A stretch of 41,458 nucleotides of DNA, taken from assembly GCA_020720665.1 (NCBI GenBank), contig DYOF01000009.1, positions 1-41,458 of the forward strand, given 5' to 3'. The translations under genes and the position numbers were made by a program. Below the pieces are notes generated by a model. The model searched no databases. It saw only the letters and a list, made by a program, of their open reading frames with translations, and was not told the DNA's origin. This document shows positions 9,433 to 38,326 of this stretch, in pieces. How positions within the stretch are numbered: position 1 is the stretch's first letter; each line of letters opens with the position of its first letter. This DNA comes from Acetofilamentum sp. (GTDB taxonomy: Bacteria > Bacteroidota > Bacteroidia > Bacteroidales > JAADGE01).

Positions 9433-9438
9433 CCGGTT

Positions 9439-10053
9439 TCAGTGGTTACCATATTTTTTAACACCTGCTTTAACTTTAACATTAATAAAATTTTCGGCAG
9501 GCGGAACAACACACGAATATTTATGATTATAAGCACAGTATGGATTATAGGCTTTATTAAAATCAATTATTATAGTTTCTCCTTCGGGTATTTTTAAATC
9601 AATATATCTTCCTCCGCCGTAAGAATTTTTACCGCTTGTTAAATCTCTGAACGGTAAAAACAAATAATCTTTATATTCTTCTTTTTCTTTAAGTTTTATG
9701 CTTTGATAAATCGGAACTTTAATTATTTTTCCTTTTAAATTAAATTCAACATCACCAAATTTAAGGTATTCGGGTGTTCGGTTTGTAGAAGTTTTCATTT
9801 TAAAGGGAAGTTCATCAGGAGTTCTGAAAAATTTGGCTTCAACTTTAAATGATTTATTAACCGGATAATATTTTAGTCCTTTAAAGTTAAGTAAATCTTC
9901 TTTTAAAAGAGGACTTGTTATACTATCAGCGTACTCTTTATTTAATTCGTCCCGAAACTTTTTAATGTCGCTTTTGAATTGATTTTGCGAAAAAAATTGA
10001 TGGTTGAAAAGCATAAAAAAGAGAAGCAAAAAAAAACTTAATCTATTGTTCAT
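9439..10053 (-). CDS. Secreted DUF1684 family protein
   Basis: A 204-residue protein with a hydrophobic signal sequence (about 5-20, ending near FFSQNQ). The remainder fits DUF1684: FLPFRDLTSGKNSYGGGRY, then IIIDFNKAYNPYCAYNHKY, then CVVPPAENFINVKVKAG. These conserved aromatic, Cys and PPAEN positions make the family call firm, but the biochemical role of the family is not known to me. Its ATG overlaps the stop of the upstream small gene in a TAATG, which indicates translational coupling. Export to the periplasm is inferred from the signal sequence. Confidence 0.85.
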   Translation of the reverse strand: MNNRLSFFLLLFFMLFNHQFFSQNQFKSDIKKFRDELNKEYADSITSPLLKEDLLNFKGLKYYPVNKSFKVEAKFFRTPDELPFKMKTSTNRTPEYLKFGDVEFNLKGKIIKVPIYQSIKLKEKEEYKDYLFLPFRDLTSGKNSYGGGRYIDLKIPEGETIIIDFNKAYNPYCAYNHKYSCVVPPAENFINVKVKAGVKKYGNH

Positions 10054-10343
10054 TAGCGGTTTAAACTATAAACATAAACAAAATAATCATATTGCTCTGA
10101 ATTGCGGCTTTGCTTTACAGAATAGTTTTCAATGAAATAATTTTGAATTTGATTGGCATCGTTTGATGAAAGTGCTTTCCATGCCTTCCATTTGTTAATA
10201 TTTTTAAGTTCTCTTTTTTCTTGATTCGGATATACAGTAAGACCGATATACCATTCTTTCCAATTTACAGAGCTTGGATTTGAAGATGAATTTGTAATAA
10301 ATTCAACAATTTCATTAATTATGTCTTGAACGGAATTATTCAT
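10053..10343 (-). CDS. Small conserved-looking protein of unknown function
   Basis: A 96-residue soluble protein from ATG 10343. It has an amphipathic N-terminal helix (VQDIINEIVEFI), a KEWYIGLTVYPNQEK segment, WKAWKALSSNDANQIQNYF and a final YDYFVYVYSL strand. The WYIG-T...A...E-YF pattern recalls small Bacteroidota proteins seen near mobile or regulatory genes, but I cannot name a family. The frame stays open upstream to a GTG at 10424 (123 residues). I prefer the ATG because the extra segment looks unlike a domain. The stop overlaps the DUF1684 start codon, so the two are probably translated together. Confidence 0.6.
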   Translation of the reverse strand: MNNSVQDIINEIVEFITNSSSNPSSVNWKEWYIGLTVYPNQEKRELKNINKWKAWKALSSNDANQIQNYFIENYSVKQSRNSEQYDYFVYVYSLNR

Positions 10344-10693
10344 TAGTATATTATTTCTATCCCTTGAGGATACATCAAATTTTGCTGTGATAAATTTTTT
10401 AGAAATCAAAGTATATTTATTCACCGGTGTTATGATTTATAGCATCTTGATAAAATTAATTTCAAATTTACAAATTTTTGTTTTTAATACAAATAATTAG
10501 TTATTAAATCGTGTTAAATTTATGAATTTTAGAAATTACCTTAAATTCACAAGACAGAGTTTGAATATGTTAATAAACAGCATGTTATAATAATTAGTAC
10601 TTCATTTTATTAAAACAATTACTTTCAGTGAGGGCTTCGCCGTTCTCACTCTGACTGTCAGACAATTAATAACAGACGTGAAGATTCAACTGA
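10344..10693. other. Gene-free stretch between pgi and the small coupled gene
   Basis: About 350 bases. The end near the small gene is AT-rich and may hold its promoter or a longer N terminus. The rest is occupied by a MITE-like repeat copy (10539-10690) that abuts the pgi stop. No other gene is apparent. Confidence 0.6.
10539..10690. repeat. MITE-like repeat, copy A
   Basis: About 152 bases, clearly related over its whole length to 37200-37352. Shared blocks include CCTTAAATYC at the left end, GAATATGTTAATAAA, a TACTTCA block, a G-rich hairpin with GGCTTCGCCGTT in its loop, and CAATTAA-A-CAGA at the right end. The inner AGTGAG and CTCACT can pair. There is no open reading frame, so it is a non-autonomous element or a structured intergenic repeat. 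Confidence 0.8.
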
Positions 10694-11974
10694 TTATTTG
10701 CCTAAAATTTTAAACATGTTTTTTTTATAAGCTTCTACTCCGGGTTGGTCAAACGGGTTTACACCGAGAATATAACCGCTGATTCCGCATGCTTTTTCAA
10801 AAAAATAAATCAATTCACCTAAGAAAAACTCTGAAATTTCGGGTATTTCGATTTTGATAATCGGAACTCCGCCGTCAATATGAGCCATTAGTGTTCCTTC
10901 TTCTGCGCTTTTATTAATTTCCTCAATTCGTTTCCCGGAAAGGTAATTCAAATTATCAGAATCATCTTCTTGCGATTCTAATACGATTTTATATTTTGTT
11001 TTTTCAACTGAAATTAGTGTTTCAAACAAATTTCTTTTTCCGTCTTGAATATATTGCCCGAGAGAATGCAAATCGGTAGTAAAATTAACTGCTGCCGGAA
11101 ATATGCCTTTTCCGTTTTTGCCTTCACTTTCACCGTATAATTGCTTCCACCATTCGCTTAAAAAACTAAGTTTCGGATTGTAATTAACCATAATTTCGTT
11201 TGTAAATCCGTTAAGGTATAATAAATTTCTTACAAGGGCGTAGGTTTCGGCAATATTTCCTTTTGTAAGTGTTTCATTTTGTATTTTTAGTGCACCTTTA
11301 ATAAGTTCTCTGATGTTAAATCCGGCTAAAGCAATAGGAAACAGTCCGACAGGTGTTAACACAGAAAAACGTCCGCCGACATCATCCGGAATTATATAGG
11401 TTTTATATCCCTCTTTTCGGGCTAATTGTTTAAGTGCGCCTTTTTCTTTATCGGTTATGGCAATTATACGCTTTCGGGCTTCATTTTTCCCGTATTTTTG
11501 TTCGATGTCATTTTTCAGTATTCGAAAAGCAACTGCCGGTTCTGTTGTTGTGCCGGACTTGGAAATAACTGTCAAACCATATGATTTGTCGCTTAAAAAT
11601 TCTCTTAATTCATACAAATAATCCTCGCTCAGATTTTGACCGGCAAATAAAACTTTAATTTGACCGGGTTTTGATTTAACCATTGAAAAATTATCTGATA
11701 ATGCATCAATTATAGCTTTTGAACCGAGATAAGAACCTCCTATACCTATAATAACCATAAACATAATTTCATTTTTAAGCGAATTTACGGTGTTTTCGAT
11801 ATCAGATATTAGGTTTTCGGTGATTTCTGCCGGTAAATTTACCCAGCCCAAAAAATCATTACCTTCTCCGGTTTTATTAATTAATGATTGATTTGCATTT
11901 TGAGCTTTTTTTTCAAATTCTAAAAATTCTTGATTTGAAAAAAATTTTTCAGCGTTTTTAATAGTGATTTTCAT
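10694..11974 (-). CDS. pgi: Glucose-6-phosphate isomerase
   Basis: Interconverts glucose 6-phosphate and fructose 6-phosphate. The 426 residues correspond to the short bacterial form. Visible are the GIGGSYLGSKAIIDAL phosphate loop, VISKSGTTTEPAVAFR (first SIS domain) and VGGRFSVLTPVGLFP (PGI signature region), followed by the C-terminal GVNPFDQPGVEAYK block with the catalytic-region Gln. Motifs are intact. The ATG lies 4-6 bases from the end of leader repeat copy 2, so its 5' untranslated region is this repeated element. A MITE-like repeat lies directly after the stop, with no clear terminator. Confidence 0.95.
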   Translation of the reverse strand: MKITIKNAEKFFSNQEFLEFEKKAQNANQSLINKTGEGNDFLGWVNLPAEITENLISDIENTVNSLKNEIMFMVIIGIGGSYLGSKAIIDALSDNFSMVKSKPGQIKVLFAGQNLSEDYLYELREFLSDKSYGLTVISKSGTTTEPAVAFRILKNDIEQKYGKNEARKRIIAITDKEKGALKQLARKEGYKTYIIPDDVGGRFSVLTPVGLFPIALAGFNIRELIKGALKIQNETLTKGNIAETYALVRNLLYLNGFTNEIMVNYNPKLSFLSEWWKQLYGESEGKNGKGIFPAAVNFTTDLHSLGQYIQDGKRNLFETLISVEKTKYKIVLESQEDDSDNLNYLSGKRIEEINKSAEEGTLMAHIDGGVPIIKIEIPEISEFFLGELIYFFEKACGISGYILGVNPFDQPGVEAYKKNMFKILGK

Positions 11975-12150
11975 GTGTCTGAATATTTAAAATTAATTAA
12001 TAATCTGCAAATTGAGTGTTTATATATATTTAAAATGCTTGTTCTTTCCTGCACATAGGAACACCACACTTTCTACTGAATGTAATTGAGGTATTCCGGT
12101 AGTTATGCTTTTTTGTATAAAAAAATGTCTTACCCGGGTATTTCATTTTT
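11975..12150 (-). repeat. Leader repeat copy 2, upstream of pgi
   Basis: A long copy of the leader element. On the minus strand it contains GCATAACTACCGGAATACC, a small hairpin TTCCT-ATGTGC-AGGAA (12046-12061), the core CACTCAATTTGCAGATTATT, TTAATTAATT and CAGACAC, then the pgi ATG. It matches the 19959-20118 copy over nearly its whole length, including the distal CCCGG-TA part. Confidence 0.85.
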
Positions 12151-17336: not shown

Positions 17337-19307
17337 TTACACAAATTCCTTGTTTTCAATTGTTTCAAATGCATTAAAAAAATCTAATTTTTGAGCAGTT
17401 TTGCGATTTACAAAAAGTTTCGCATTTTTGGGTTTCACAACACGTGATTTAATCGGTTTTTTATCCAATATATCCATAGCTATTTTAACAGCATGTTCTG
17501 TTACCGAATCCCAAGGAATAACATAACCTGCCAAACCTCCTCTTAATACGGTATCTTCAAGCATACATAATGTAGGAAATCGGTCGGTAATAATGCTTAA
17601 TTGTTCGTATCCGGAAGCTGCAATAACCGTACTGGTTCCGACATAAACCCATTTTACATTTTTTCGTTCAAAATAATCTCTCGCTTTAATAAAATCTTCT
17701 GCTTCCTGAATTTCAAAACTGTATATTTTTATTCCGGCTTTATTTGCATATTCTGAAATATCATCATATTGAATTTCGGCTTGTAACTCACCTCTTCTGT
17801 AAATAACTCCGATATGCTTTATATTTTTGTCGATTTTATAAATGGTATGTTTAAATTGATCTTCAATATTTGTAGAATAACACGTTGCATAATAATTTCT
17901 GTTATGGTCTTTCTCAAAATCAGAAATTATTGCAGAACTGTAAATGCCCGTAAAAACAATCGGAATGGTATCATTTTTAAGATATTGCCCTAATCTCATA
18001 CTAATAGGAGAACCGATAGCAAATATTAAATCAACAGAATCTGATTTAAATTTTTCAACTGCATGCATAACTTTTTCTTCGTCTCTCTTACAATTTTCAT
18101 AAATTATTTGCATGTTATTATCGCGTTCTTTTCTGAAAATATATCCGGCTTTTTTAAATTTCTCTTCAATAACATTAATTGATTTTACATAAACTTCTAA
18201 ATTATCCCAATATAAAATACCTACTTTTTTTATGTCGGTTGTATAATTTTTTGCTCTCTCCTCTCCTCTCAAAACTCTTAATCCGCCTTGTGCTAATGCT
18301 TCAAGTTCAGATTCACCGGGATAGACTTCAACATTACTTATAAAGCCTACTCTTTCAATAATCCAATCCGTAAGCATTTTAGAGTGGGCTAAACCGCCTG
18401 TTAAAATAATTGAATCGATTTTCCCTTTTAAGTTTGTTGCACGTTTACCAATTTCTTCCGCAACTTGATATGCCATAGCTTGATACACCAAATTGTATTT
18501 TTCAGAACCGGCATTTATCATTTTTTCTACATCTCTTGCATCATTTGTATTAAAATAGGAAACCAAACCTCCTTTACCTACGACCATTTTTCTTAATTCA
18601 TCAGTTGTAAACTCACCGGAAATACATTTTTCAAGATATTTAAACAAAGGCAAACTTCCGCTTCTCTCCGGAGAAAAAGGTCCTTCATATAAACCGTTAT
18701 TTACATTAATAGCCTTTCCTTCTTTTAAAGCGGCAACCGTTATTCCGCCGCCCAAATGTGCTACAATCAAATTTAAGTCGATGAGTTTTTTATTTTTGTT
18801 TTTAGCAAATTCACGAGCAGTAGAAAAAATATTTAACGCGTGTAATAATGACGAACGTTCAAAATTTTTATGCCCTGAAATTCTTGCTAAAGGTTCTAAA
18901 TCATCAACTGCCGGAGGATCAACAATATAAGAAGGAATTGAATATTCCCATCCGATGCTGTAAGCAATAACACAACCCAAATTTGAAGCATGGTGTCCTT
19001 GTAATCCGCATCCGGCATCTTTAATCATATCTTGGTCAATTATATATGTTCCGCTCGGAATCGGTTTTATTAAACCTCCTCTCCCTACAACTGCATCTAA
19101 GGATTTAATGTCGAATTTTTTATTTTTAAGTGCATTAATAATTTCTTCTTTACGGAAAGTATATTGATCCCAAATTGAAGCATATTGTTCTAATTGCTTA
19201 GGACTATGATGAATATTAATTTCAAATACAATATTTTCGTCTTTAAAAACACCAATTTTTGTTGATGTTGAACCCGGATTAATTGTCAGTATGTAGTATG
19301 GTTTCAT
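17337..19307 (-). CDS. Butyrate kinase fused to an ABC substrate-binding-like domain
   Basis: A 656-residue fusion. Residues 1 to about 360 are a complete butyrate kinase-type ASKHA kinase: ILTINPGSTSTKIGVF at the N terminus, VAHLGGGITVAAL, PFSPERSGSLP, IILTGGLAHSKML and ALAQGGLRVLRGEE. Residues about 365-656 match the ABC_sub_bind (TrpX-like) periplasmic-binding fold: VGILYWDN, DLIFAIGSPIS, TIPIVFTGIYSS, IGVIYRRGE and the closing AKLFVNRKTAQKLDF. There is no signal peptide or membrane segment, so the binding domain should be cytosolic, perhaps an allosteric sensor (inference). The frame is continuous with no stop at the junction. It lies 33 bases after the YhhN gene; no phosphotransbutyrylase is nearby. 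Confidence 0.87.
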   Translation of the reverse strand: MKPYYILTINPGSTSTKIGVFKDENIVFEINIHHSPKQLEQYASIWDQYTFRKEEIINALKNKKFDIKSLDAVVGRGGLIKPIPSGTYIIDQDMIKDAGCGLQGHHASNLGCVIAYSIGWEYSIPSYIVDPPAVDDLEPLARISGHKNFERSSLLHALNIFSTAREFAKNKNKKLIDLNLIVAHLGGGITVAALKEGKAINVNNGLYEGPFSPERSGSLPLFKYLEKCISGEFTTDELRKMVVGKGGLVSYFNTNDARDVEKMINAGSEKYNLVYQAMAYQVAEEIGKRATNLKGKIDSIILTGGLAHSKMLTDWIIERVGFISNVEVYPGESELEALAQGGLRVLRGEERAKNYTTDIKKVGILYWDNLEVYVKSINVIEEKFKKAGYIFRKERDNNMQIIYENCKRDEEKVMHAVEKFKSDSVDLIFAIGSPISMRLGQYLKNDTIPIVFTGIYSSAIISDFEKDHNRNYYATCYSTNIEDQFKHTIYKIDKNIKHIGVIYRRGELQAEIQYDDISEYANKAGIKIYSFEIQEAEDFIKARDYFERKNVKWVYVGTSTVIAASGYEQLSIITDRFPTLCMLEDTVLRGGLAGYVIPWDSVTEHAVKIAMDILDKKPIKSRVVKPKNAKLFVNRKTAQKLDFFNAFETIENKEFV

Positions 19308-27471: not shown

Positions 27472-29859
27472 ATGATGAAAAAAGCAGCATTCTTTTTTAT
27501 ACTCTTAATTAACTACTCTTTATTTATTTCTGCTCAAACAACCGGTTGTGTGTATGGTGATTGTGATAACGGCTACGGAAAATATGTTTGGGAAAACGGA
27601 GATGAATATATCGGAGATTGGGTTGATAACCAACAAGAAGGAAACGGTACGTTTTATTTTAAAACCGGAAGCAAATATGTAGGAGAATATAAAAGCGGTA
27701 CGCGTTGGGGCACAGGAACTTATACTTGGAGTACAGGAGAAAAACATACAGGACAATGGATGAGTGACAGCCAACACGGAGAAGGCTCTTATTATGATTC
27801 ATACGGAAACGTAACGGTCGGAGTTTGGAAAGACGGGACTTATCAAGGAAAAATAGGTGAAATTTCCGGTTGTATATTCGGAGATTGTTCTGACGGATAC
27901 GGTACTTATGTATGGACCAGCGGCGAAAAATATACCGGAAATTGGGTACTAGACAAAAGAAAAGGACAAGGTACCAACTATTTTGCAGGCGGCGATAGAT
28001 ATGAAGGAGAATGGTTAAATGATTTAAGAAACGGTTACGGTACGAATTATTATCTTGACGGAACTTCAAAGTCAGGAATGTGGGAAAACGACAAATATAC
28101 CGGAACCGGTGAAAATAATTACGGTTGCATTTCAGGGAACTGTACAGACGGATACGGAATTTATACATGGCAATCCGGAGAACGTTATGAAGGTTATTGG
28201 GGCTATGATAAAACTGACGGAATCTCTAAACGGAACGGATACGGAACAAATCATTTTTCTAACGGAGCAACTTACACAGGAACATGGAATATGGATTTGA
28301 AAGACGGATACGGAACATACTATTATCACCCTGAATCTGAATATAAAAGCTATATCGGCGATTATATATTGGATAAAATGACCGGAAACGGAAACTTTGA
28401 ATACAGAAATGGTCAAAAATACGTAGGTGTTCTATACAATAATTACTTTCACGGTGAAGGAACAATGTATTATGCAGACGGAACTACCGAATCGGGAACA
28501 TGGGAAAATGATAAGCTGATTAAGAAAAGTGTTAAAACCGGTTGTGTATCAGGTAATTGTGTAAACGGATTCGGAACTTACGTTTCCGAAAGCGGTGATA
28601 AATATATCGGAACATATAAAAACAGTGCTTACAGCGGCAGAGGAACCTATACTTTTGCCAATGGTGAAACCTACGAAGGAGAATTTCAATCAGGTACATA
28701 TAACGGTCAAGGAACATATAAATTTAATTCAGGAACAAAATATGTCGGTGAATTTAAAAATGGTGAGTATAACGGAATAGGAACTGTTTTTTATTCAGAC
28801 GGAACTACAAAATCAGGTCTTTGGGAAAATAATGAATATAAAGGAACCGGCAAAAACACTACAACTTTAGCAAAAGTTACATGGTTAACACCTGAATATT
28901 ACACAACAACATCTGACCAAAAATCAATTGAGGTAAAAATTTGTATTAAATCAGCCGGTGAATTACAAAATGTTCAATTTTATGTAAACGGAAATTTAAA
29001 AGTTAATAATGCCACAAGAGGTTATACAGTTGTAAACACGGATTGTGATTATACAATTAACAGAAGCATTCCATTAGATGAAGGAAAAAATACTTTAACT
29101 GTAAAAGTTACAAATACTGCCGGTGAAACAACATCTGAAGCCCGTATAATAAATATGAAATCAAAAGAAGTTACTTCTGACGAAAAGCGTTTGGCACTCG
29201 TTATAGGTAACGGCGAATATTTAATGTCTCCTCTGAGAAATCCGCCTAATGATGCAAATGTTATTGCTGACGAACTAAAACAACTCGGATTTGAAGTAAT
29301 GGTTTATACAAATTTAAGCCAAAATGATATGAAAACCAGAATCAGAGAGTTTGGTGATAAATTATCTGCACAAAAAGGAGTCGGTTTATTTTACTATGCA
29401 GGACACGGTATGCAACTTAACGGAGAAAATTATATTGTACCCGTTAGTGCTGTTATAAATAAAGAACAAGATGTTGAATTAGAAGCTGTTAACCTTAAAA
29501 GAATTTTGGGTGAAATGGATTATGCAGAAAACGACCTGAATATTATTATTCTCGATGCGTGCAGAAATAACCCTTTTGCTCGAAGCTTTCGTTCGGGAGG
29601 TGAAAACGGATATGCATCCGTAAGTGCCCCCAAAGGAACCTATATCGCATTTGCAACTGCACCCGGGTCAGTAGCTTCTGACGGAGCCGGAGACAACGGA
29701 TTGTACACTCAAGAATTAGTAAAAGCGTTAAAAAACCCCGGGTTAAAAATTGAAGACGTATTTAAACAAGTCAGAGGTAGTGTTTATAAAATTTCAAATC
29801 AAGAACAACTTACTTGGGAAAATTCATCAATTTTCGGCGACTTTTATTTTAAACGTTAA
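27472..29859 (+). CDS. Secreted MORN-repeat caspase-like protease (C14)
   Basis: A 795-residue exported protein. Order: signal peptide (1-22, ending FISAQ); about 16 MORN-like units (about 25-470) in four blocks, each opening with GC-x2-G-x-C-x2-G-[YF]-G (near 25, 133, 218 and 357) and most ending in a DGT-x-SG-x-WEN unit; an Ig-like beta region (about 475-565); and a caspase domain (about 570-795). The caspase dyad is present: His645 in YYAGHGMQ and Cys697 in LDACRNNPF, with a preceding RLALVIGNGEY strand. MORN repeats often bind lipid or glycan surfaces, so they may tether the protease to the envelope (inference). A papain-like protease gene follows after 98 bases. Confidence 0.9.
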   Translation: MMKKAAFFFILLINYSLFISAQTTGCVYGDCDNGYGKYVWENGDEYIGDWVDNQQEGNGTFYFKTGSKYVGEYKSGTRWGTGTYTWSTGEKHTGQWMSDSQHGEGSYYDSYGNVTVGVWKDGTYQGKIGEISGCIFGDCSDGYGTYVWTSGEKYTGNWVLDKRKGQGTNYFAGGDRYEGEWLNDLRNGYGTNYYLDGTSKSGMWENDKYTGTGENNYGCISGNCTDGYGIYTWQSGERYEGYWGYDKTDGISKRNGYGTNHFSNGATYTGTWNMDLKDGYGTYYYHPESEYKSYIGDYILDKMTGNGNFEYRNGQKYVGVLYNNYFHGEGTMYYADGTTESGTWENDKLIKKSVKTGCVSGNCVNGFGTYVSESGDKYIGTYKNSAYSGRGTYTFANGETYEGEFQSGTYNGQGTYKFNSGTKYVGEFKNGEYNGIGTVFYSDGTTKSGLWENNEYKGTGKNTTTLAKVTWLTPEYYTTTSDQKSIEVKICIKSAGELQNVQFYVNGNLKVNNATRGYTVVNTDCDYTINRSIPLDEGKNTLTVKVTNTAGETTSEARIINMKSKEVTSDEKRLALVIGNGEYLMSPLRNPPNDANVIADELKQLGFEVMVYTNLSQNDMKTRIREFGDKLSAQKGVGLFYYAGHGMQLNGENYIVPVSAVINKEQDVELEAVNLKRILGEMDYAENDLNIIILDACRNNPFARSFRSGGENGYASVSAPKGTYIAFATAPGSVASDGAGDNGLYTQELVKALKNPGLKIEDVFKQVRGSVYKISNQEQLTWENSSIFGDFYFKR

Positions 29860-29957
29860 TCTTTTTAATTATTGAAATTTATTCCTAACTAAAATTCAAT
29901 TAATCATACTGATAAAATCAACTGACAAAAAATACTTAATTGTTAAATTTTAAACTG

Positions 29958-31346
29958 ATGAAAAAACTATCTATATTAATCCTTATCTTATTTCTGACAA
30001 TAGTTCAAATTAGTTTTTCACAAGAATTCGGAACAGGACTGAACTTTAATGATTCCAAATACGAAAATGTTCAGAAAAAAGCCGTTTTAACAAGAAGCTT
30101 ATATACAGAACTTCCAAAATATTTTTCACTTAAAAAATTTGCCCCTACGCCAAAAAGCCAAGGGCAATACGGAACATGTGTCGGATGGTCAACCGCATAT
30201 GCGGGAATGACAATTTTAGAATCTGTACACGAAAATCGAACAGATGTTTCAGAAACTACAACAAATACATTTTCTCCCGGATTTATTTATAAACAAATAA
30301 AAACCGATACGGATAATGATTGTAAACTGGGCTCATCAATTGATGACGCTTTGAATATTATGAAAACAAAAGGCGTATGTAAATATGATGAATTATCCGA
30401 AGTAAACTGTCCGCTTTATTTACCTTCTGACCTGTTTACAAAAGCTTCGTCATATAAAATTACAGATTATGCTAAAATTTTCGGAATGTTTGATTCAAAA
30501 GAATTTAAAATTTCAGCCGTTAAAAAAAGCTTATCTGAAAAAAATCCTGTAATAATAGGTATGAACACACCTCAATCGTTCTATTACACAAAAGATACAT
30601 GGATTCCGACAGAAAGCAGCAGTTTAACCTACGGCGGACATGCAATGTGTGTAATCGGCTATGATGATAACAGAAACGGTGGTTCTTTTGAAATAATGAA
30701 CAGCTGGGGAGAACAATGGGGCAATGACGGTTTTATTTGGATTAAATATGATGATTTTCATAATTTTGTAAAATACGCCTATGAAATGATTAAGTTCAAA
30801 TCTGATAAAATTAATGAATTATACAGTTTTGCAGGCAGCGTTGATTTTATTAAGACTGACGGAACAATTAGTGAAATGAATTATGAAAACGGTATCTATA
30901 AAAATAGTGATAACTATCGTTCCGGAACGAAATTCAGATTATTAATGTCAAACTCAGAACCGGCATACGTATATGCTTTCGGTTTTGATGCCACATTAAA
31001 AACATTTACAATATTTCCGCACGAACCCGGTATTTCAGCCGCTTTAAATTACACCCAAAATAGTGTGGCTATACCTGATGAGGATCATTTCATTCAAACT
31101 GATAATACCTTGGGAAAAGACTATTTATGTGTTCTGTTTTCAAAAGAACAATTAAATATTGAAGATATTAAAACAAGAATTGAACAAACAGATGGTTCAT
31201 TTAAAGAACGCGTAAAGTTTGTTTTAAACGATGTTATAATTCCGGATTATACAATATCATTTCATCAAAAAAAAATAGCATTTAGTGTAAAAAATTCATC
31301 AAAAAAAGTCGCCGCATTAATAATTGAAACCGAGCATATTGAATAA
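29958..31346 (+). CDS. Secreted papain-like cysteine protease with DUF4384-like tail
   Basis: A 462-residue exported protein. The signal peptide MKKLSILILILFLTIVQISF ends near SQEF. The C1-type domain (about 40-275) has Gln68 and catalytic Cys74 in SQGQYGTCVGWSTAYAG, His228 in YGGHAMCVIGYDD and Asn248 in MNSWGEQWG, so the triad is complete. The C-terminal region (about 290-400) resembles DUF4384: KFRLLMSNSEPAYVYAFGFD, then IFPHEPG, ending in YLCVLFSKEQL. ATG 29958 is chosen over the in-frame TTG at 29940 because it gives a clean signal peptide. It lies between the MORN-caspase and the SiaB/SiaC fusion, on the same strand. Substrates are unknown. Confidence 0.87.
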   Translation: MKKLSILILILFLTIVQISFSQEFGTGLNFNDSKYENVQKKAVLTRSLYTELPKYFSLKKFAPTPKSQGQYGTCVGWSTAYAGMTILESVHENRTDVSETTTNTFSPGFIYKQIKTDTDNDCKLGSSIDDALNIMKTKGVCKYDELSEVNCPLYLPSDLFTKASSYKITDYAKIFGMFDSKEFKISAVKKSLSEKNPVIIGMNTPQSFYYTKDTWIPTESSSLTYGGHAMCVIGYDDNRNGGSFEIMNSWGEQWGNDGFIWIKYDDFHNFVKYAYEMIKFKSDKINELYSFAGSVDFIKTDGTISEMNYENGIYKNSDNYRSGTKFRLLMSNSEPAYVYAFGFDATLKTFTIFPHEPGISAALNYTQNSVAIPDEDHFIQTDNTLGKDYLCVLFSKEQLNIEDIKTRIEQTDGSFKERVKFVLNDVIIPDYTISFHQKKIAFSVKNSSKKVAALIIETEHIE

Positions 31347-31428
31347 ATAACTCATTTTAAGATGTTTAACATAAAAGTAATCAATTAATACGACTTATTC
31401 AATATTTTATTAATAAAAAAAATATTTG

Positions 31429-31436
31429 TAAATTTG
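31429..31436 (+). promoter_or_regulatory. Bacteroidota -7 box of the SiaB-SiaB-SiaC / channel / ppk1 operon
   Basis: TAAATTTG is an exact TAnnTTTG match 28 bases before the ATG at 31465. It suggests that the last three genes of the cluster can be transcribed apart from the two protease genes. No -33 TTG is seen. Confidence 0.5.
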
Positions 31437-31464
31437 TCTAAATATTTATGATTTCAGCAAACTG

Positions 31465-33009
31465 ATGACAAAATCATCCTTTACAGAAAATGAGAATAAT
31501 TTAGCATATCAACTTTTTGAAAGTATGCAAGGCAGTACAATGGAGTACTCTTATAGAGGATGTTTTACGACAAAAATAACAGATACTATTTTAACCCTAA
31601 CCGAATCTAACCTTCAATCAGAGCATGTCGAAAAAAAATTACGAAAAAGAGTTTTTTTTATTATTGTTGAAGGTTTACAAAACATTACTCGTCATCAAAG
31701 TGAAAGCGATTCAGACGAATTATCAACTTATCCGGGTTTATTTGTCGTTCAATACAAACCCGACGGCTATTATATTACGACCGGAAACTTAATCAAAGCA
31801 TCACACGAAAGTAAAATAAAAAATCAAATTGATAAAATTAATCAATTGGGAACTGAAGAACTCAAAAAATATTCATTAGAACGATTAGATGAAGGAGAAT
31901 TTTCTGAAAAAGGAGGTGCAGGTTTAGGATTAATTGAAATAGCAAGAAAATCAGAGAATAAACTATTTTACGAGTTTAAAAAAATAAATGATGATTATTT
32001 ATTTTTTTATATGCATACAAAAATTCTTGATATCGGAAATAAAAATGAACGCAATTACAAAAATGAAAAAGAATACATCGGAAGTATTATAAAACATCAT
32101 AAAATACTTGAAACACAAAACATTTTATTAAGCTTCATCGGTGCATTTACACAAGATACATTGGTCAATTTATTATCTATTACAGAACACCAATTGAAAG
32201 GTACGGTAATTTTAAAAATGAACGTTTTTAATATTATGGTTGAAGTCCTGCAAAATATTGTAAACCATGCTGATAAATACGATTATAACGGAATTTTCGG
32301 TAAACATGCAATATTTTTTATCCGAGATACCAATGACAAACTCATTTTTACATCAGGAAATTACATTCATACATCTAAAATTGACATATTTAAAGACCGA
32401 TTACATACCGTAAACATACAAACACAAGAACAACTGGCTGAATCTTACAATGAAAATTTATTGAATTTTGATAATAAACCTGATGAAAATCCCGGTTTAG
32501 GACTTATTGACATTAAAATGAGGACTAAAACTCCTTTTATTTTTGATTTTTTCAAAATTAATGACACTTTTTCATTTTTTACACTTAAAATATATATAAA
32601 CAAAATGAAAGACGGAATAGAAAAATACATTATTCAAGAAGATGATGATACCCCCGAAATAATTCTTGACCCAAAAGAAGGTACCATACACTTTAAAGGA
32701 AAATCAATACCTGAAAATGCTGTCAGCTTCTATAAACCTATTATAGATTGGTTAAACATTTATAAAGAAAAACCGGCTCAAAATACTAAAGTAACAATTG
32801 AGTTCGATTATTATAACACTGCTACAGACAGGCAATTAGTTAAAATTCTTTTAATATTAGAAGAAATATCCAAAAATCACATAGTAAACGTTTTTTGGTA
32901 TTACAACACCGGCGATATAAGCATGCTGAACGACGGTAATAAATTCAAAGAGCTTATTGATTTGAATGTTGAAATAATTGAGCTTCTTGACGAAGAATTT
33001 GATAATTAA
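31465..33009 (+). CDS. SiaB-SiaB-SiaC fusion: two GHKL kinase domains and a SiaC (DUF1987) domain
   Basis: A 514-residue cytoplasmic protein of three parts. Residues about 8-190 and 200-380 are both SiaB-family (DUF6272) domains. The first has an N-box with Glu69 and Asn73 (VEGLQNITRH) and a G-box GAGLGL ending at 156. The second has Glu260 and Asn264 (VEVLQNIVNH) and PGLGL ending at 347. Residues about 390-510 are SiaC-like: TPEIILDPKEGTIHFKGKS, PENAVSFYKPIIDWL, YYNTATDRQLVKILLI and VFWYYNTGD. In Pseudomonas SiaB phosphorylates a SiaC threonine; Thr452 or Thr454 here is the candidate site (inference). Kinase and substrate in one chain, with a doubled kinase, is unusual. It is first in a unit with the channel and ppk1. 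Confidence 0.86.
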   Translation: MTKSSFTENENNLAYQLFESMQGSTMEYSYRGCFTTKITDTILTLTESNLQSEHVEKKLRKRVFFIIVEGLQNITRHQSESDSDELSTYPGLFVVQYKPDGYYITTGNLIKASHESKIKNQIDKINQLGTEELKKYSLERLDEGEFSEKGGAGLGLIEIARKSENKLFYEFKKINDDYLFFYMHTKILDIGNKNERNYKNEKEYIGSIIKHHKILETQNILLSFIGAFTQDTLVNLLSITEHQLKGTVILKMNVFNIMVEVLQNIVNHADKYDYNGIFGKHAIFFIRDTNDKLIFTSGNYIHTSKIDIFKDRLHTVNIQTQEQLAESYNENLLNFDNKPDENPGLGLIDIKMRTKTPFIFDFFKINDTFSFFTLKIYINKMKDGIEKYIIQEDDDTPEIILDPKEGTIHFKGKSIPENAVSFYKPIIDWLNIYKEKPAQNTKVTIEFDYYNTATDRQLVKILLILEEISKNHIVNVFWYYNTGDISMLNDGNKFKELIDLNVEIIELLDEEFDN

Positions 33010-33044
33010 AACATAAACCTTTGTTTTAAATTAATTTTATCAAT

Positions 33045-35039
33045 ATGTACAGTAATTTTTCGGATTACAAAGTTCGAATATTGAAAGAAACATATCTTTA
33101 TAACGATATTCAATATCCTCAAACTGCATTTGTCGAATTTTATAATAAAAACAATGAACTAATTGCTTCTGAAAAGTTTGCATTTATTGATAATTCCTTT
33201 ATATTAGAGCATATCAGGGTTTATGGCGAAATTCAACTTGAACATTCTTTTATCGAAAATTTCGATTTATCATTACTAAGAGAAAATCTTGAGGGAAAAA
33301 AATTGATTCTGAATAACTTTTCAGCAGCAAATTGCATTTTTAATAATCCTGACAGCATAATTGATTTTTCAAATGTTTTATTTGATTCCGATACCATTAA
33401 TTTTGAAAATACAATTTTTAATTGCAAAAAACTTAATTTTTCAAACAGCAGTTTTTTTGCAAAAGAAACAGATTTTAGCAATACATTCTTTAAAACAGAA
33501 CTGGTAAATTTTTCTAAAACGTTTTTTTCAGACGGAGACGTCAATTTTAAAAATGCAATTTTTTCTGAAGGCAATAAAGACTTCCAAAACATTCAATTTC
33601 AACACGGTAAAGTTATATTTATTAATGTTGATTTTAATGACGGCGATGTTTTATTTACAGATACAAATTTCAACAGCGGAATCAATTCCTTTAAAATTGC
33701 CAATTTCGGTGACGGACGAGTCGATTTTTCAAGAGTCTTATTCGGACCGGACGAAACCTCATTTGAAAAAACCAATTTCGGAGACGGCGACATATCGTTC
33801 CGGTCAGCAAATTTCGAAAACGGAAAACTTAGTTTTACAAGTTCAATATTCGGTACAGGAAAAAAATCTTTCATAAATACTTACTTCGGAAATGCCAATA
33901 TTTACTTTAAAAATTCATACTTCGGAAACGGTGGCATTTCATTCCGATTAGCTGAATTCGGTAACGGAATCGTCGATTTCCATTACTCAGAATTCGGAAA
34001 ATGTAACATTCAATTTGACAGAACCCTGTTTTTAAACGGAGAAATTAATTTTAAAGCAGTTAATTTCGGTAACACTAAAATAAGCTTCAGTAAAACATTT
34101 TTCGGCGAAGGAGATGTTATTTTTGAAGGTGCAGCACTTATAGGTGAACTTACAATTAAAGATTCAGTTCTGGGAAAAGGAGAATTTAATTTCACCGAAG
34201 CAAATTTTGCTGATGCCGACGTGTTTATAAATAATGTAGATTTCGGTATCGGTAAAATATCATTTAATAAATCTAGTTTCAGAACACTTTCATTTAAAGG
34301 CTCACAATTAGATAATTACTTTAATTTGCAAATTGCCGGCTGTGAATCCCTTGATTTATCACATACAGTTGTAAAAGATATTTTAGATATTAACCCGCCT
34401 GATTTTGACCCTGAAATTAAATCAATTAATTTGTCTGGAATGAGATTATTAGGAAGAATATACATTGATTGGAGACGTGCAAATATTAAAGAACTAATTT
34501 ATAATCAAGATAATACATTTAGAAATAAAGAAGAACAATTCAGAATATTAAAAGAAAACTATAACGCTACCGGCCAATATTCATATGAAGATGAAGCGTA
34601 TGTCGAATTTAAACGAACAGAAGCCTTAGCCCATTTAAAAGAAGACATCGTGAAAGAACCAAAAATGCTGCCCATACATTATCTGAAATACGCTTTTAAG
34701 TGGTTAATATTCGATAAAATGGGAAAATTTGCAACCGACCCGCTTCGTGTGCTTCTGACAATGTTGATAACCTATTTATTGTTTACATTTATATACATCA
34801 TTTTCGGCGAATACGGCGATACACATATCATCTCATCTCTTTTTCCTCCTGATGACCCAAGAGTTCTCGGTTTATACGGAAAAGCTTTTTACCATAGTGC
34901 AATTACATTTTTAACCATCGGTTACGGAGATTATTATCCACATGGTGTAAACCGCTGGATTTCTTCAATTGAGGGATTTGTCGGACTTTTTTTAATGTCC
35001 TACTTTACAGTTGCATTTGTGCGAAAAATATTAAGATAA
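33045..35039 (+). CDS. Pore-loop ion channel with N-terminal 12-residue repeat solenoid
   Basis: A 664-residue protein. Residues about 112-411 are about 25 tandem 12-residue units of the form x-F-G-[DN]-G-x-[IV]-x-F-x-x-[AST], with Phe spaced alternately 7 and 5. This resembles a pentapeptide-type beta-helix with two extra residues per turn. A helical linker follows (about 480-560). The C-terminal end is a two-TM pore: TM1 about 568-590, the pore loop with filter TIGYGD (624-629), and TM2 about 640-662. The filter is that of K+ channels. The repeat domain is cytoplasmic by topology if TM1 runs outward (inference). It lies 35 bases after the SiaB/SiaC fusion and 23 bases before ppk1, so it is co-transcribed with both. 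Ligand unknown. Confidence 0.87.
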   Translation: MYSNFSDYKVRILKETYLYNDIQYPQTAFVEFYNKNNELIASEKFAFIDNSFILEHIRVYGEIQLEHSFIENFDLSLLRENLEGKKLILNNFSAANCIFNNPDSIIDFSNVLFDSDTINFENTIFNCKKLNFSNSSFFAKETDFSNTFFKTELVNFSKTFFSDGDVNFKNAIFSEGNKDFQNIQFQHGKVIFINVDFNDGDVLFTDTNFNSGINSFKIANFGDGRVDFSRVLFGPDETSFEKTNFGDGDISFRSANFENGKLSFTSSIFGTGKKSFINTYFGNANIYFKNSYFGNGGISFRLAEFGNGIVDFHYSEFGKCNIQFDRTLFLNGEINFKAVNFGNTKISFSKTFFGEGDVIFEGAALIGELTIKDSVLGKGEFNFTEANFADADVFINNVDFGIGKISFNKSSFRTLSFKGSQLDNYFNLQIAGCESLDLSHTVVKDILDINPPDFDPEIKSINLSGMRLLGRIYIDWRRANIKELIYNQDNTFRNKEEQFRILKENYNATGQYSYEDEAYVEFKRTEALAHLKEDIVKEPKMLPIHYLKYAFKWLIFDKMGKFATDPLRVLLTMLITYLLFTFIYIIFGEYGDTHIISSLFPPDDPRVLGLYGKAFYHSAITFLTIGYGDYYPHGVNRWISSIEGFVGLFLMSYFTVAFVRKILR

Positions 35040-35062
35040 AAAACTTAATTCATTTGTAAATA

Positions 35063-37135
35063 ATGATTTCCGAAAAAAAATACTACGACAGAGAATTAAG
35101 CTGGTTATCATTTAACAAGCTGGTTTTAGAACAAATAAAAGACAAAACACTTCCGTTGTTTGAACGAATTAAGTTCTTAGCAATTTACTCATCAAATTTA
35201 GACGAATTCTATCGTGTACGCGTAGCCTATTATCGCAGCTTACTCGATATCCCTGAAAAAAGTCGTAAAGACTTAGATTATAATCCGGTAACAGTTCTAA
35301 GAAATATAAAGAAAGAAGTTATTAATCAACAAAAAGATTATGAAAACGTATTTTACAAAAGCATAATTCCTGAATTAAGTCAAAATGGAATTACTTTTTA
35401 TAAAAATCAAAAATTAAATGCTAAACATATAGATTTCATTAAAGATTACTTTTCCAAAGATTTATTTCCCGAAATACAACCGGTTCTTCTGTCAAGTTCA
35501 GGAGCCGTTCTATCATTTCTAAAAGACAATGTAATCTATTTAGCAATCAAGATGGAAAGAAAAAACCGTCCGGATTCATACAAAACAAGATATGCAGTCA
35601 TTCAGGTTCCGTCAATTACATTAGGACGTTTTGTTAAATTGCCTCCATATAAAAACAATCATTTTTATATGTTTCTTGAAGATATGATACGTATTCATCT
35701 GAGCTCCATTTTTCCGGGCTACGAAATTATATCCTCACATAGCATTAAATTATCCAGAAACGCTGATTTAATGATTGATGATGAATTTACCGGTAATTTT
35801 CTGGCAAAACTAAAAAAATCACTGAACCAAAGAAAAACCGGATTTCCTGCACGATTTTTATATGACCGAAAAACACCCAAAGATTTATTGAATGTATTAA
35901 AATTAGCTTTTAATTTAACTGAAAAAGATTATGTACCCTTTGGCAGATATTTAAGTTTAAGCGATTTTTTTTCGTTTAGAAATCCATTGAGCCCTCAATT
36001 GGAGTTAGAACCTTTAAAGCCTCTGAAACATCCTGTTTTCGAACAATACGACTCAATTTTTGATGCCGTTGATAAATCAGATATTTTACTTCACTTTCCA
36101 TATCAAACCTACGATTATGTTTTAAAATTTTTCAATGAAGCAGCCATCGACCCACACGTTGAAGAAATAAAAACAACACAATACCGTGTTGCAACCAACT
36201 CGGCTATTGTTAACTCGCTGATAACGGCTGTCAGAAACGGAAAAGAAGTTACTGTTTTTGTTGAAGTGAAAGCGCGTTTTGACGAAGAAGCAAACATAAA
36301 ATTTGCAGATAAAATGAGAGCAGCCGGAATTCACGTTTTAGACGGTATTCCGGGTTTAAAAGTTCATGCAAAAGCAGCATTGGTAACTAAAAAATCAACA
36401 AAAAAATATAAAGCAAAATCATATGCTTTTTTAAGCACCGGAAATTTTAATGAAAAAACAGCTACACAATATTCTGATGAAGGATTTTTTACTTCAGATA
36501 AGTCTATAATAAAAGATATTCAAAAACTGTTTTATTACTTAGATAACCCTGTTGATAAATTCAAATTTAAGGAGATTTTAGTACCTCGTTTTAACATGAT
36601 AGAGGTATTTAAACAAAAAATTAAACAAGAAGTTACAAATGTAAACAATGGTTTAAAAGGGTATTTACTATTTAAAATTAACGGTATAAGTGATACCGAA
36701 TTGATAGATATGTTATATGATGCATCTCAGTCAAATGTTAAAATAGATTTAATTGTGCGGGGAATTTGTCGGTTAAAACCCGATATGCCATACAGTAAAA
36801 ATATTCAAATTACCCGTATTGTTGATCGTTTTCTGGAACATTCACGAATTTATGCCTTTTATAACAACGGAAATTGGGAAGTTTATATTTCATCGGCTGA
36901 TTTACTTACCAGAAATGTCAGAAGACGTGTAGAAACGTTAATTCCTATTTTTGATAAAACAATTATTCAGGAACTCATTGATATTTTAATGATACAGTTA
37001 AAAGATAATACAAAAGGCAAAATTTTAAACTCTGAAACAGAAAATATTGATAAATTCAGAGCAGAACAGGAACCTGAATATCGTGCTCAAATTGACACCT
37101 ATAAATACTTAGCCGAAAAGTACGAAAAACAGTAA
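35063..37135 (+). CDS. ppk1: Polyphosphate kinase 1
   Basis: Makes polyphosphate from ATP, reversibly. The 690 residues have the usual length and order: N domain (KKYYDRELSWLSFNKLVLEQ), the SNLDEFYRVRV motif, FPYQTYDYVLKFFNEAA, and two phospholipase D-like C domains. The autophosphorylated His435 (GLKVHAKAAL) and the second His593 (FLEHSRIYAFY) are both present, as is STGNFNEKTA. No exopolyphosphatase gene is adjacent. It is the last gene of the SiaB/SiaC - channel - ppk1 unit; I see no strong terminator before the MITE-like repeat that starts 64 bases downstream. Confidence 0.97.
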   Translation: MISEKKYYDRELSWLSFNKLVLEQIKDKTLPLFERIKFLAIYSSNLDEFYRVRVAYYRSLLDIPEKSRKDLDYNPVTVLRNIKKEVINQQKDYENVFYKSIIPELSQNGITFYKNQKLNAKHIDFIKDYFSKDLFPEIQPVLLSSSGAVLSFLKDNVIYLAIKMERKNRPDSYKTRYAVIQVPSITLGRFVKLPPYKNNHFYMFLEDMIRIHLSSIFPGYEIISSHSIKLSRNADLMIDDEFTGNFLAKLKKSLNQRKTGFPARFLYDRKTPKDLLNVLKLAFNLTEKDYVPFGRYLSLSDFFSFRNPLSPQLELEPLKPLKHPVFEQYDSIFDAVDKSDILLHFPYQTYDYVLKFFNEAAIDPHVEEIKTTQYRVATNSAIVNSLITAVRNGKEVTVFVEVKARFDEEANIKFADKMRAAGIHVLDGIPGLKVHAKAALVTKKSTKKYKAKSYAFLSTGNFNEKTATQYSDEGFFTSDKSIIKDIQKLFYYLDNPVDKFKFKEILVPRFNMIEVFKQKIKQEVTNVNNGLKGYLLFKINGISDTELIDMLYDASQSNVKIDLIVRGICRLKPDMPYSKNIQITRIVDRFLEHSRIYAFYNNGNWEVYISSADLLTRNVRRRVETLIPIFDKTIIQELIDILMIQLKDNTKGKILNSETENIDKFRAEQEPEYRAQIDTYKYLAEKYEKQ

Positions 37136-37199
37136 ACCCTCATAAATATCAAAATATCAATTAGCTTCCTCTGAAAGAATAAATAAATTTTTTTAAATA

Positions 37200-37352
37200 C
37201 CTTAAATCCGCAAGTCAAGGTGCGAATATGTTAATAAATAACATGTAATCATAATTTATACTTCACGCTATAAAAAAAATACTTTTAGTGAAGGCCTCGC
37301 CGTTCGCACTTTGACTATCAGGCAATTAAAAGCAGATTTACGAAATTCAAGG
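37200..37352. repeat. MITE-like repeat, copy B
   Basis: About 153 bases, similar to copy A over its whole length. Subterminal GTCAAGGTGCGAA and TTCGCACTTTGAC are inverted with one mismatch, and the ends CCTTAAATCCGCAAGTC and AGATTTACGAAATTCAAGG are imperfectly inverted. It has no coding capacity. Confidence 0.8.
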
Positions 37353-37436
37353 AAATACACAATCAAAGTATGTTTTAAGACGATAAATCATAGGCTTCAT
37401 TTCTGCAAATCCTTATAAAAAAGCAACAAATAATAT

Positions 37437-37450
37437 GTTACATATGTAAC
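37437..37450. promoter_or_regulatory. Palindrome GTTACATATGTAAC, possible operator
   Basis: A perfect 14-bp palindrome. Its GTTAC-N4-GTAAC form recurs at 38213-38226 just before the XRE promoter, so it may be a further binding site of that regulator. Confidence 0.4.
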
Positions 37451-38212
37451 CTATTGAGATGTTTTACGAAACTACACATATTTTTAATTATAATATATTT
37501 TTAATAACCTTATTATCAGTTATTTATATTCTTTAAATAAACTAATACATGAAATAAATTTAAGAAAAACATTGAAATTTTAAATAAATATCTAATATTA
37601 ATAATGTTATATTGTTTATAATCTGTTATTTACAATGTTTATCTAAATGTATATTTTATTATTAAACCAAATCTGTTTTAAAGTGAATTATATATTTCAA
37701 TAAGCATTAGTTATACATGTAACATCTATAATAGTAAAATTACATAACATATTAATCAATGTTATTGATTTAACTCATATTTTCTTATATCTGATATAGT
37801 GTTTTTGTTTTGGTAATTATGTTAATTATGAGAATGTCCTGTTCCCGTTAAGATAATAACAAAAAATTATGTCATTATTATTTAAACCTTAGTCTTAGTG
37901 ATTAAACCTAAGTAGATAATGGTATTGAAATAAAATTAACCTTACTGCCTTATTATTAACATTTATACTATTAGTTGATAACTCTTAACTAAGGATTTGT
38001 AACGGAATAAGATGCTTAAAATTGACGCTGTTATTTTGTTATTTTTGAAGGCTCAAAATTGCAGCTGACAGCTTGCGTTTATTTGCAAAATTTTAAACGC
38101 AGAAAAAGGGCAAAAACAAGTCAAAATATATATGTTATTTAGATACAAATCCTTAATGACACAGATAAATTAATTTCAATTCACTCATCAAAAATTACCG
38201 ATTGTTCGTATA

Positions 38213-38248
38213 GTTACATACGTAACTTATAGATGTTTACATATGTAA
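38213..38248. promoter_or_regulatory. Tandem palindromes upstream of the XRE promoter, possible operators
   Basis: GTTACATACGTAAC (38213-38226) and TTACATATGTAA (38237-38248) have centres 23 bp apart, about two helical turns. They end 15 bases before the -33 box of the XRE gene. The position fits autoregulation by the XRE protein or binding by another dimeric regulator. Confidence 0.5.
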
Positions 38249-38262
38249 TATATTTATGTTTA

Positions 38263-38294
38263 TTTGTGTAACTTAATTAAATTACTTATCTTTA
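38263..38294 (+). promoter_or_regulatory. Promoter of the XRE gene
   Basis: TTTG (38263-38266), a 20-base spacer and TATCTTTA (38287-38294) match the Bacteroidota consensus except for the last base. It lies 32 bases before ATG 38327, which supports that start over the TTG at 38264, a codon lying inside the -33 box. Confidence 0.65.
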
Positions 38295-38326
38295 CATTTC
38301 TAACATCTGAATTAGATATATTTATT

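Follow-up and report, generated by a model that had tools for sequence, protein, structure and literature searches.

The stretch of DNA analysed here (the window) comprises 41,458 nucleotides (nt) of a draft genome of Acetofilamentum sp. (Bacteroidota; Bacteroidales) and corresponds to contig DYOF01000009.1 (C16; G, C, L and A numbers are our handles for genomes, contigs, loci and alignments) of assembly GCA_020720665.1, which holds 2.6 Mb in 237 contigs and is 99% complete. Five intact plus-strand open reading frames (ORFs) lie together in it (Table 1), separated in order by gaps of 98, 118, 35 and 23 nt. They encode a caspase-like protease with MORN repeats, a papain-like protease, a protein in which two SiaB-type kinase domains are joined to one SiaC domain (SiaBBC), a K+-type channel on a repeat solenoid, and polyphosphate kinase 1 (PPK1). 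A first-pass annotation made from the sequence alone had described these five genes, their coordinates, the short gaps between the last three and the identity of the parts, and all of this was borne out. It had also stated that it knew of no described system with this gene set, and none was found in the open-licence literature that we searched. The last three genes are real and conserved as a set and probably form an operon, apparently not described before, through which a known kind of switch would gain new candidate outputs.

Table 1. Features of the five-gene region, in coordinates of the window
Feature	Coordinates	Strand	Basis
MORN-repeat caspase-like protease (C14), exported, 795 amino acids (aa), protease pair gene 1	27472..29859	+	domains, motifs
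Papain-like protease (C1) + DUF4384, exported, 462 aa, protease pair gene 2	29958..31346	+	domains, motifs
-7 box TAAATTTG, Bacteroidota-type (TAnnTTTG), 36 nt upstream of SiaBBC start	31429..31436	+	
SiaB-SiaB-SiaC fusion (SiaBBC), 514 aa	31465..33009	+	Pfam, alignment, fold match
K+-type channel with two transmembrane segments (2-TM), 664 aa	33045..35039	+	Pfam, model, filter motif
Polyphosphate kinase 1 (PPK1), 690 aa	35063..37135	+	Pfam, TIGR03705, histidine motifs

SiaBBC consists of two GHKL kinase domains (residues ~15-188 and ~208-378) and one SiaC domain (~390-507). The kinase part belongs to the DUF6272/SiaB family (PF19788, 4.1e-63 in two stretches; NF038262, 232.9 bits at a cut-off of 85) and the SiaC domain matches PF09345 (3.5e-31), with scores below the equivalog cut-offs for SiaB (106 of 225 bits) and SiaC (63 of 150 bits). 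The sequence matches solved SiaB and SiaC chains, and the structure model matches the folds of SiaB-SiaC (6kko, 5.0e-8) and SiaC-SiaD (7e6g, 1.5e-7). The phospho-threonine of SiaC lies within the peptide LLYLNTSSIK, where SiaA removes and SiaB adds the phosphate, according to an excerpt of the published work (PMC7647112). T452 of SiaBBC aligns with this peptide (N-T-S-S) and is the predicted phospho-site. T452, N73, N264, KGGAGLGL (149-156) and GLG (344-346) are invariant in alignments A3 (12 sequences) and A5 (18 sequences). In many relatives the doubled SiaB and the SiaC are separate adjacent ORFs, and therefore the one-chain form probably arose by fusion.

These features are shared with SiaABCD of Pseudomonas aeruginosa, which has a SiaB-type GHKL kinase, a SiaC domain with the phospho-threonine motif, the folds matched above, and the same logic of a binding partner that is set by a phosphatase and a kinase and encoded beside its target. 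SiaD of P. aeruginosa becomes active when SiaC without its phosphate binds to it, and the same work suggested that proteins adjacent to DUF1987 (SiaC) domains are modulated by them (PMC8457831, in the part available to us). Unlike SiaABCD, the window's kinase is doubled and fused to SiaC in a single chain, the operon has no phosphatase gene, and the neighbours are a K+ channel and PPK1. The genome gave no GGDEF match in a search that was positive in 8 of 14 genomes. Identity of the locus with SiaABCD was rejected on these two grounds, no PP2C gene in the operon and no GGDEF protein found in the genome, and an output through cyclic diguanylate (c-di-GMP) was rejected on the second. The partner switches RsbU/RsbW/RsbV and SpoIIE/SpoIIAB/SpoIIAA combine a GHKL kinase, a STAS-like substrate and a PP2C phosphatase. 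SiaBBC gave weaker fold matches to these (6m37, 1l0o); it differs from them in that its fold is nearer SiaB/SiaC and no sigma factor is found among the five genes.

The channel carries an Ion_trans_2 domain (2.3e-10) behind a beta-solenoid of 12-residue repeats, in which phenylalanine occupies positions 1 and 6. In the model (predicted local distance difference test score, pLDDT, 90.4; predicted template modelling score, pTM, 0.74) the N-terminal solenoid is followed by a helical linker, TM1 (~566-590), the filter TIGYGD (624-629) and TM2 (~635-663). Filter residues T624 and G626-D629 were invariant in 33 of 33 aligned channels, and T[IV]GYGD was found in all 23 channel ORFs examined; alignment A2 leaves out the G055 channel. 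Two hydrophobic segments can be read in the sequence. The N-terminus lacks a signal-type segment, and the solenoid is therefore expected to lie in the cytoplasm. The two TM segments, the filter and sequence matches to Kir and KcsA chains place the protein near the prokaryotic KirBac/KcsA-type 2-TM K+ channels. Unlike these, its regulatory part is a long N-terminal beta-solenoid, and unlike Kir it ends right after TM2 and thus has no C-terminal Kir domain.

A shorter form of the channel (~582 aa; L152-L198) is common, making up 49 of the 80 loci kept, out of 274, in a channel search in which neighbours were sought within 5 kb of the channel. This search brought in relatives from metagenome assemblies, most of which carry the label Bacteroidales, Bacteroidetes/Bacteroidota or Chlorobiota. 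The same large gene (in L152 a PD-(D/E)XK nuclease, PDDEXK_1) lies nearby in 33 of the 49 short-channel loci, and a radical-SAM-type gene in 20. Only two of the short-channel stretches show Sia genes, namely that of L128, where a long form is broken, and that of L183, with the SiaB and SiaC genes ~5 kb away. Since the short form is widespread and mostly without Sia genes nearby, the channel probably predates the operon. SiaBBC was a neighbour of the channel at 17 loci, or at 16 without L128, whose 551-aa ORF was placed in the short-channel group.

PPK1 has the full set of Pfam domains (PF13089, PF02503, PF17941 and PF13090) and scores 677 bits against TIGR03705 (cut-off 466). Its histidine motifs KVHAK (433-437) and LEHSRI (591-596), aligned to 2o8r, are intact. 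Both strings are present in 13 of 14 ORFs; that of G001 reads KVHVK, with the histidine kept.

Gene order was read from fetched stretches in a synteny sample of 20 genomes from the genus and family and 39 from other families of the order. The genus set comprises 14 genomes, including that of the window (G000), and the rest of the family 7. Locus counts for L119-L198 overlap with the genome-based counts and are not independent of them: L119-L125, L130 and L144 coincide with G004, G005, G009, G013, G002, G011, G007, G012 and G003, and L134, the same locus as G082, was counted once.

Fusion and channel proteins of the genus are 65-78% identical to those of the window, and the order is conserved. 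Wherever a genus genome holds both SiaBBC and the channel gene on a single contig, the two are adjacent on one strand (12 of 12: G000-G005, G007-G009, G011-G013); they are split between contigs in G006, and no fusion was found in G010 (70% complete). The channel gene adjoins ppk1 in 13 of 14 (the exception is G004), and all five genes occur in order in 9 of 14, including G002. Elsewhere in the family the SiaBBC-channel pair was found in 6 of 7 genomes and the channel-ppk1 pair in 3 of 6 (G014, G018, G020); the latter was not seen in G017 and G019, where contigs end behind the channel, or in G016, where another gene follows. G014 and G020 also have all five genes in order, with ORFs inserted. 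Seven loci have tight channel-ppk1 junctions, with either 3-7 nt between the two genes or a 4-nt overlap. Thus the conserved neighbourhood that the first-pass annotation proposed to look for was found for the last three genes in the genus and partly in the family, contrary to its refuting condition of homologues lying mostly far apart; farther out they mostly do not lie together (18 of 21 genomes).

A family of small (~155-aa) exported-looking proteins, several with a FALCC-type motif and without Pfam match in the members scanned, is encoded behind ppk1, on the strand opposite to it, in L129 and in seven of the named loci from the genus. It also occurs behind the channel in L136 and, in the window's genome, near a separate SiaB-SiaC locus (L089). 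Members lie at L120 8255-8716, L129 9714-10190, L127 3405-3872, L136 2785-3243 and L089 14735-15196. No convincing match to it was found behind ppk1 in the window (37136-38323).

We next consider the gap upstream of SiaBBC. All 13 genus loci carry the sequence TAnnTTTG, which we take to be the Bacteroidota -7 consensus, at a distance of 30-54 nt upstream of SiaBBC (41 nt before the fusion ATG in G006). Eleven of the 13 genus papain-SiaBBC gaps were compared with shuffled sequences; all 11 contained the box, against a mean of 1.09 of 11 in shuffles that keep single-base content only, the loci being related to one another. The other gaps examined seldom contained it (1 of 8 between caspase and papain genes, 1 of 5 before the caspase gene, 0 of 11 between SiaBBC and channel, and 1 of 9 between channel and ppk1, the last being a 203-nt gap). 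General scans of the window were uninformative for sigma-70 promoters (88 promoter-like sites, 68.5 in shuffles) and for terminators (4 terminator-like, 4.9 in shuffles). Judging from the sequence, linkage of SiaBBC, channel and ppk1 within the genus is well supported, and 31465-37135 is probably one transcription unit there, with its own promoter, the proteases forming another.

Kept flanking genes speak for vertical descent with some rearrangement. Both flanks are retained in G001, G002, G008 and G012 and one visible flank in G005, G009, G011 and G013; the upstream flank differs in G003 and G004. Upstream we take these genes to be rluD-like and carboxypeptidase-like, and downstream presumably helix-turn-helix (HTH), tilS-like and aroK-like. 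Such descent could by itself hold unrelated genes together, and the evidence for the operon comes mostly from one genus and its family, in which the flanks are kept too. We regard this gene-order inertia as improbable, since ppk1 and SiaBB(C) also lie side by side in a different order in three other families. An order-wide sample of 393 genomes was scanned at E <= 1e-60 for SiaBB(C) and E <= 1e-150 for ppk1; only the top few candidates per genome were scored, with weaker homologues and their neighbourhoods uncounted. Outside the family, 21 genomes hold both genes, and in 3 of these ppk1 is divergent beside SiaBB(C): with a doubled SiaB without SiaC part in G037 (C43), with a full fusion in G056 (C128), which has no channel match in its genome, and with a full fusion followed by the channel in G082 (C157). 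The scan of named loci found the order of G082 again in L139; in G278, of the same genus as G082, only 89 nt lie between the ppk1 start and the end of the contig, too few to show the neighbouring gene. Chance neighbours of SiaBB(C) and ppk1 would number ~0.04 in 21 genomes, a rough expectation that assumes independence and ~3500 genes per genome.

These findings lead us to a tentative reading, held with a little less than even confidence: that SiaBBC, channel and ppk1 are one operon in which a partner switch of the SiaABC kind, contained in one polypeptide, has the channel and PPK1 as candidate outputs. The kinase domains of SiaBBC would phosphorylate T452, in cis or in trans, and one sensor PP2C phosphatase encoded elsewhere would strip the phosphate upon a signal. 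The unphosphorylated SiaC domain might then bind the cytoplasmic part of the channel, PPK1 or both, and alter their activity; such direct control is our inference. K+ is a counter-ion of polyphosphate and crosses the membrane with phosphate in phosphate-accumulating bacteria, as described in an excerpt of PMC5865004. Polyphosphate synthesis and the movement of this counter-ion would thereby be set together, and a cell with channel and PPK1 under one switch could make or use polyphosphate while balancing charge. The conserved run of SiaBBC with channel and ppk1 suggests, as far as gene order can, that the switch controls K+ and polyphosphate together. The open-licence literature yielded no described link of SpoIIE or partner switches with PPK, or of polyphosphate with a channel and SiaB.

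Several observations weigh against this reading. The model of SiaBBC is of middling confidence (pLDDT 76). Single genes of the set are damaged, displaced or without a match in relatives: ppk1 of G002 has a broken frame, and in G004 a remnant lies behind the channel with the gene on another contig; the fusion ORF of G017 ends early, inside the SiaC part, after 419 aa, the channel frame of G016 contains a stop, and G015 has the fusion without a channel match. Farther away, SiaBB(C) and ppk1 were not seen next to each other in 18 of the 21 outside-family genomes. The fusion and channel of L138 have no ppk1 beside them, the three genes are on three contigs in G036, and PPK1 and the channel each also occur without Sia genes beside them. 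Of the 7 loci from the rest of the family, only that of G020 has the promoter-like box (81 nt away); the region between the divergent genes lacks it in L134 and in L139, and L102 has one 151 nt away; no clear -33 box is visible upstream of SiaBBC. Finally, none of the SpoIIE (PP2C) matches of the genome lies on the window's contig.

Phosphatases are nevertheless plentiful in the genome, which has 14 SiaC, 11 SiaB-domain and 23 SpoIIE-type PP2C matches in its 2.6 Mb. Each of the other 13 SiaC copies retains N-[T/S] where SiaBBC has its predicted phospho-site. These numbers favour the main rival to direct control, co-expression alone, according to which SiaBBC would be a node of a Sia/PP2C network with another target, and channel and ppk1 would be parallel stress outputs behind a shared promoter. 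The 18 outside genomes without SiaBB(C) beside ppk1 point the same way. We consider co-expression without direct control possible, though on the unlikely side: the three genes have been brought together in two arrangements, and the tight or overlapping channel-ppk1 junctions in 7 loci likewise favour a functional tie.

In some relatives SpoIIE proteins are encoded close to the operon. A 1557-aa propeller-Y_Y_Y-SpoIIE protein is encoded behind the channel gene in L134, and contig ends fall inside SpoIIE genes behind the channel in L132 and L138. The window's genome encodes a 1579-aa relative, 51% identical to the L134 protein, on C214 (L090 4342-9081), where a SiaB-SiaB-SiaC trio of separate genes lies next to it. 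G014 has, directly before SiaBBC (L127 3958-7899), the gene for a 1313-aa protein that combines ferredoxin, Fe-hydrogenase, PAS and SpoIIE parts and is possibly a redox- or hydrogen-sensing PP2C phosphatase. We treat these proteins as candidate phosphatases for the switch, as leads and not assignments.

The Sia network of the window's genome is spread over contigs C13, C58, C59, C149, C166, C183, C199, C200, C201 and C214. On C183 a doubled SiaB is followed by three consecutive SiaC genes, and on C59 (L096 3636-5291) two SiaC genes lie near a hemerythrin-domain gene, with a similar-looking ORF between them. The genome also gave one match to a Ppx-GppA-type gene outside the window. This gene (L222 12947-13864) is on C214, the contig with the SiaB-SiaB-SiaC trio, one gene apart from a propeller-Y_Y_Y-SpoIIE gene (8901-12056).

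The two proteases were analysed in the same way, with homologue searches thresholded at 1e-20. An N-terminal hydrophobic segment of signal-peptide type can be read in the sequence of both and in none of SiaBBC, channel and PPK1. Protein 1 has 10 MORN stretches and a Peptidase_C14 domain (2.1e-38), and protein 2 a Peptidase_C1 domain (3.1e-13) and DUF4384; the gene for protein 2 may start at TTG 29940 or at ATG 29958, from which its 462 residues are counted. The presumed catalytic motifs of caspase (YAGHG/DACR) and papain (GTC/GGHA/NSWG) are intact in the window. Caspase motifs were found in 11 of 13 ORFs, the remaining two being ~305-aa MORN-type ORFs. The strict papain motif was found for H in 9 and for C in 13 of 14 ORFs, and the five ORFs that failed it read [SNP]GHA and GTC by eye. 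G008 and G013 (L074 12080-16496, L078 3279-7726) have an enlarged caspase of ~1062 aa, with 13 MORN stretches counted in L074, preceded by a ~305-aa ORF that resembles the caspase protein without its catalytic motifs. MORN repeats followed by a caspase domain have been reported before, with 1 to 4 repeats in the part of the source available (PMC4933709). Protein 1 shares this order with the MORN-metacaspases of aquatic bacteria and differs from them in its ten MORN stretches and its conserved papain-like partner gene.

The first-pass annotation had treated all five genes as one module. As an envelope-stress or signalling module, the exported proteases would sense or process something outside and the switch would answer inside. 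The papain gene adjoins SiaBBC in 13 of 13 genus genomes having both, the five-gene order described above extends to 9 genus genomes and to G014 and G020, and the caspase and papain genes are adjacent in 10 of 13 genus genomes. The pair is, however, separable. Away from the Sia genes, adjacent caspase and papain genes recur with their order kept in one further genome of the family (G019) and in one genome each of four other families (G030, G036, G037 and G055). Eight genomes outside the genus match both proteases strongly (E < 1e-100); in 7 of these the two genes are neighbours, and in G016 they are split between contigs. Within the genus the caspase gene is elsewhere (G003, G004) or was not found (G011) in 3 of 13 genomes, and the Sia-channel pair is intact there. 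The papain gene is upstream of SiaBBC in 2 of 7 other family genomes (G014, G020), with ORFs inserted. Because the pair is found away from Sia genes, the caspase gene is displaced or not found within the genus, and a promoter-like box lies between the two groups, the proteases look like a neighbour with its own history, a separate module and no part of the switch. The single five-gene module thus did not hold up, and we judge it quite unlikely.

A role in defence or regulated cell death, also raised by the first-pass annotation, would have the caspase, the channel or both kill or arrest a phage-infected cell. Known defence systems use caspase-like proteases and gated channels as effectors. HalA, the effector of the Hailong system, is a membrane channel with a further domain, as is the window's channel, and HalA (9nyi_A) is the first Foldseek row for the channel model, a weak match (E 2.2e-3; TM-score 0.24 by query and 0.44 by target). 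HalA was absent among the best 60 of 187 and the best 60 of 81 matches in two sequence searches. It was also missing from the 50 rows of a VIA-align comparison, a result that counts neither for nor against a relation. Unlike in Hailong, the partner gene of the channel is ppk1 and no nucleotidyltransferase gene; HalB is not encoded beside the channel gene, where Pfam identifies SiaBBC and PPK1 on either side. PADLOC gave only a general caspase match for protein 1 (2.7e-6) and weaker matches to Cas5d for SiaBBC (0.0071) and DrmC for PPK1 (0.0016), with none for the channel, and protein 1 scored 51 bits against NF047832 (EACC1-associated caspase), below the cut-off of 140. The locus is also kept between the same flanks in G001, G002, G008 and G012. 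A defence island was rejected on the weak PADLOC matches and the kept flanking genes, and a defence role is, in our judgement, very improbable.

The weak similarity to HalA gave rise to one further idea, because the HalA channel has been reported to be blocked by poly-dA adducts of HalB (PMC13275509, in the portion available). By analogy, polyphosphate made by PPK1 might bind the solenoid or linker and gate the K+ channel, with SiaBBC setting the pair. This is a distant prospect. In 30 of the 33 aligned channels the solenoid carries a net negative charge (-13 in the window), which speaks against the idea, and repeat positions 2 and 3 hold K/R in 32% and 26% of cells and D/E in 22% and 5%, a mild basic stripe at most.

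Elsewhere in the window no RNA elements or tRNAs were found above threshold. A 656-aa ORF on the minus strand (17337-19307) joins an acetate-kinase-family domain (PF00871) to an ABC substrate-binding domain (PF04392).

The SiaC-type switch worked out in the literature that we found has, in the excerpts consulted, a single output, c-di-GMP synthesis. If SiaBBC does control the channel and PPK1, polyphosphate and K+ homeostasis would be open to control by phosphorylation, and the operon would put to the test the proposed modulation by SiaC/DUF1987 domains of proteins encoded next to them. Were polyphosphate itself to gate the channel, the operon would encode a polyphosphate-gated ion channel under partner-switch control. 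More speculatively, with 14 SiaC and 23 PP2C matches in one genome, Ser/Thr partner switches may serve these bacteria much as second messengers serve others.

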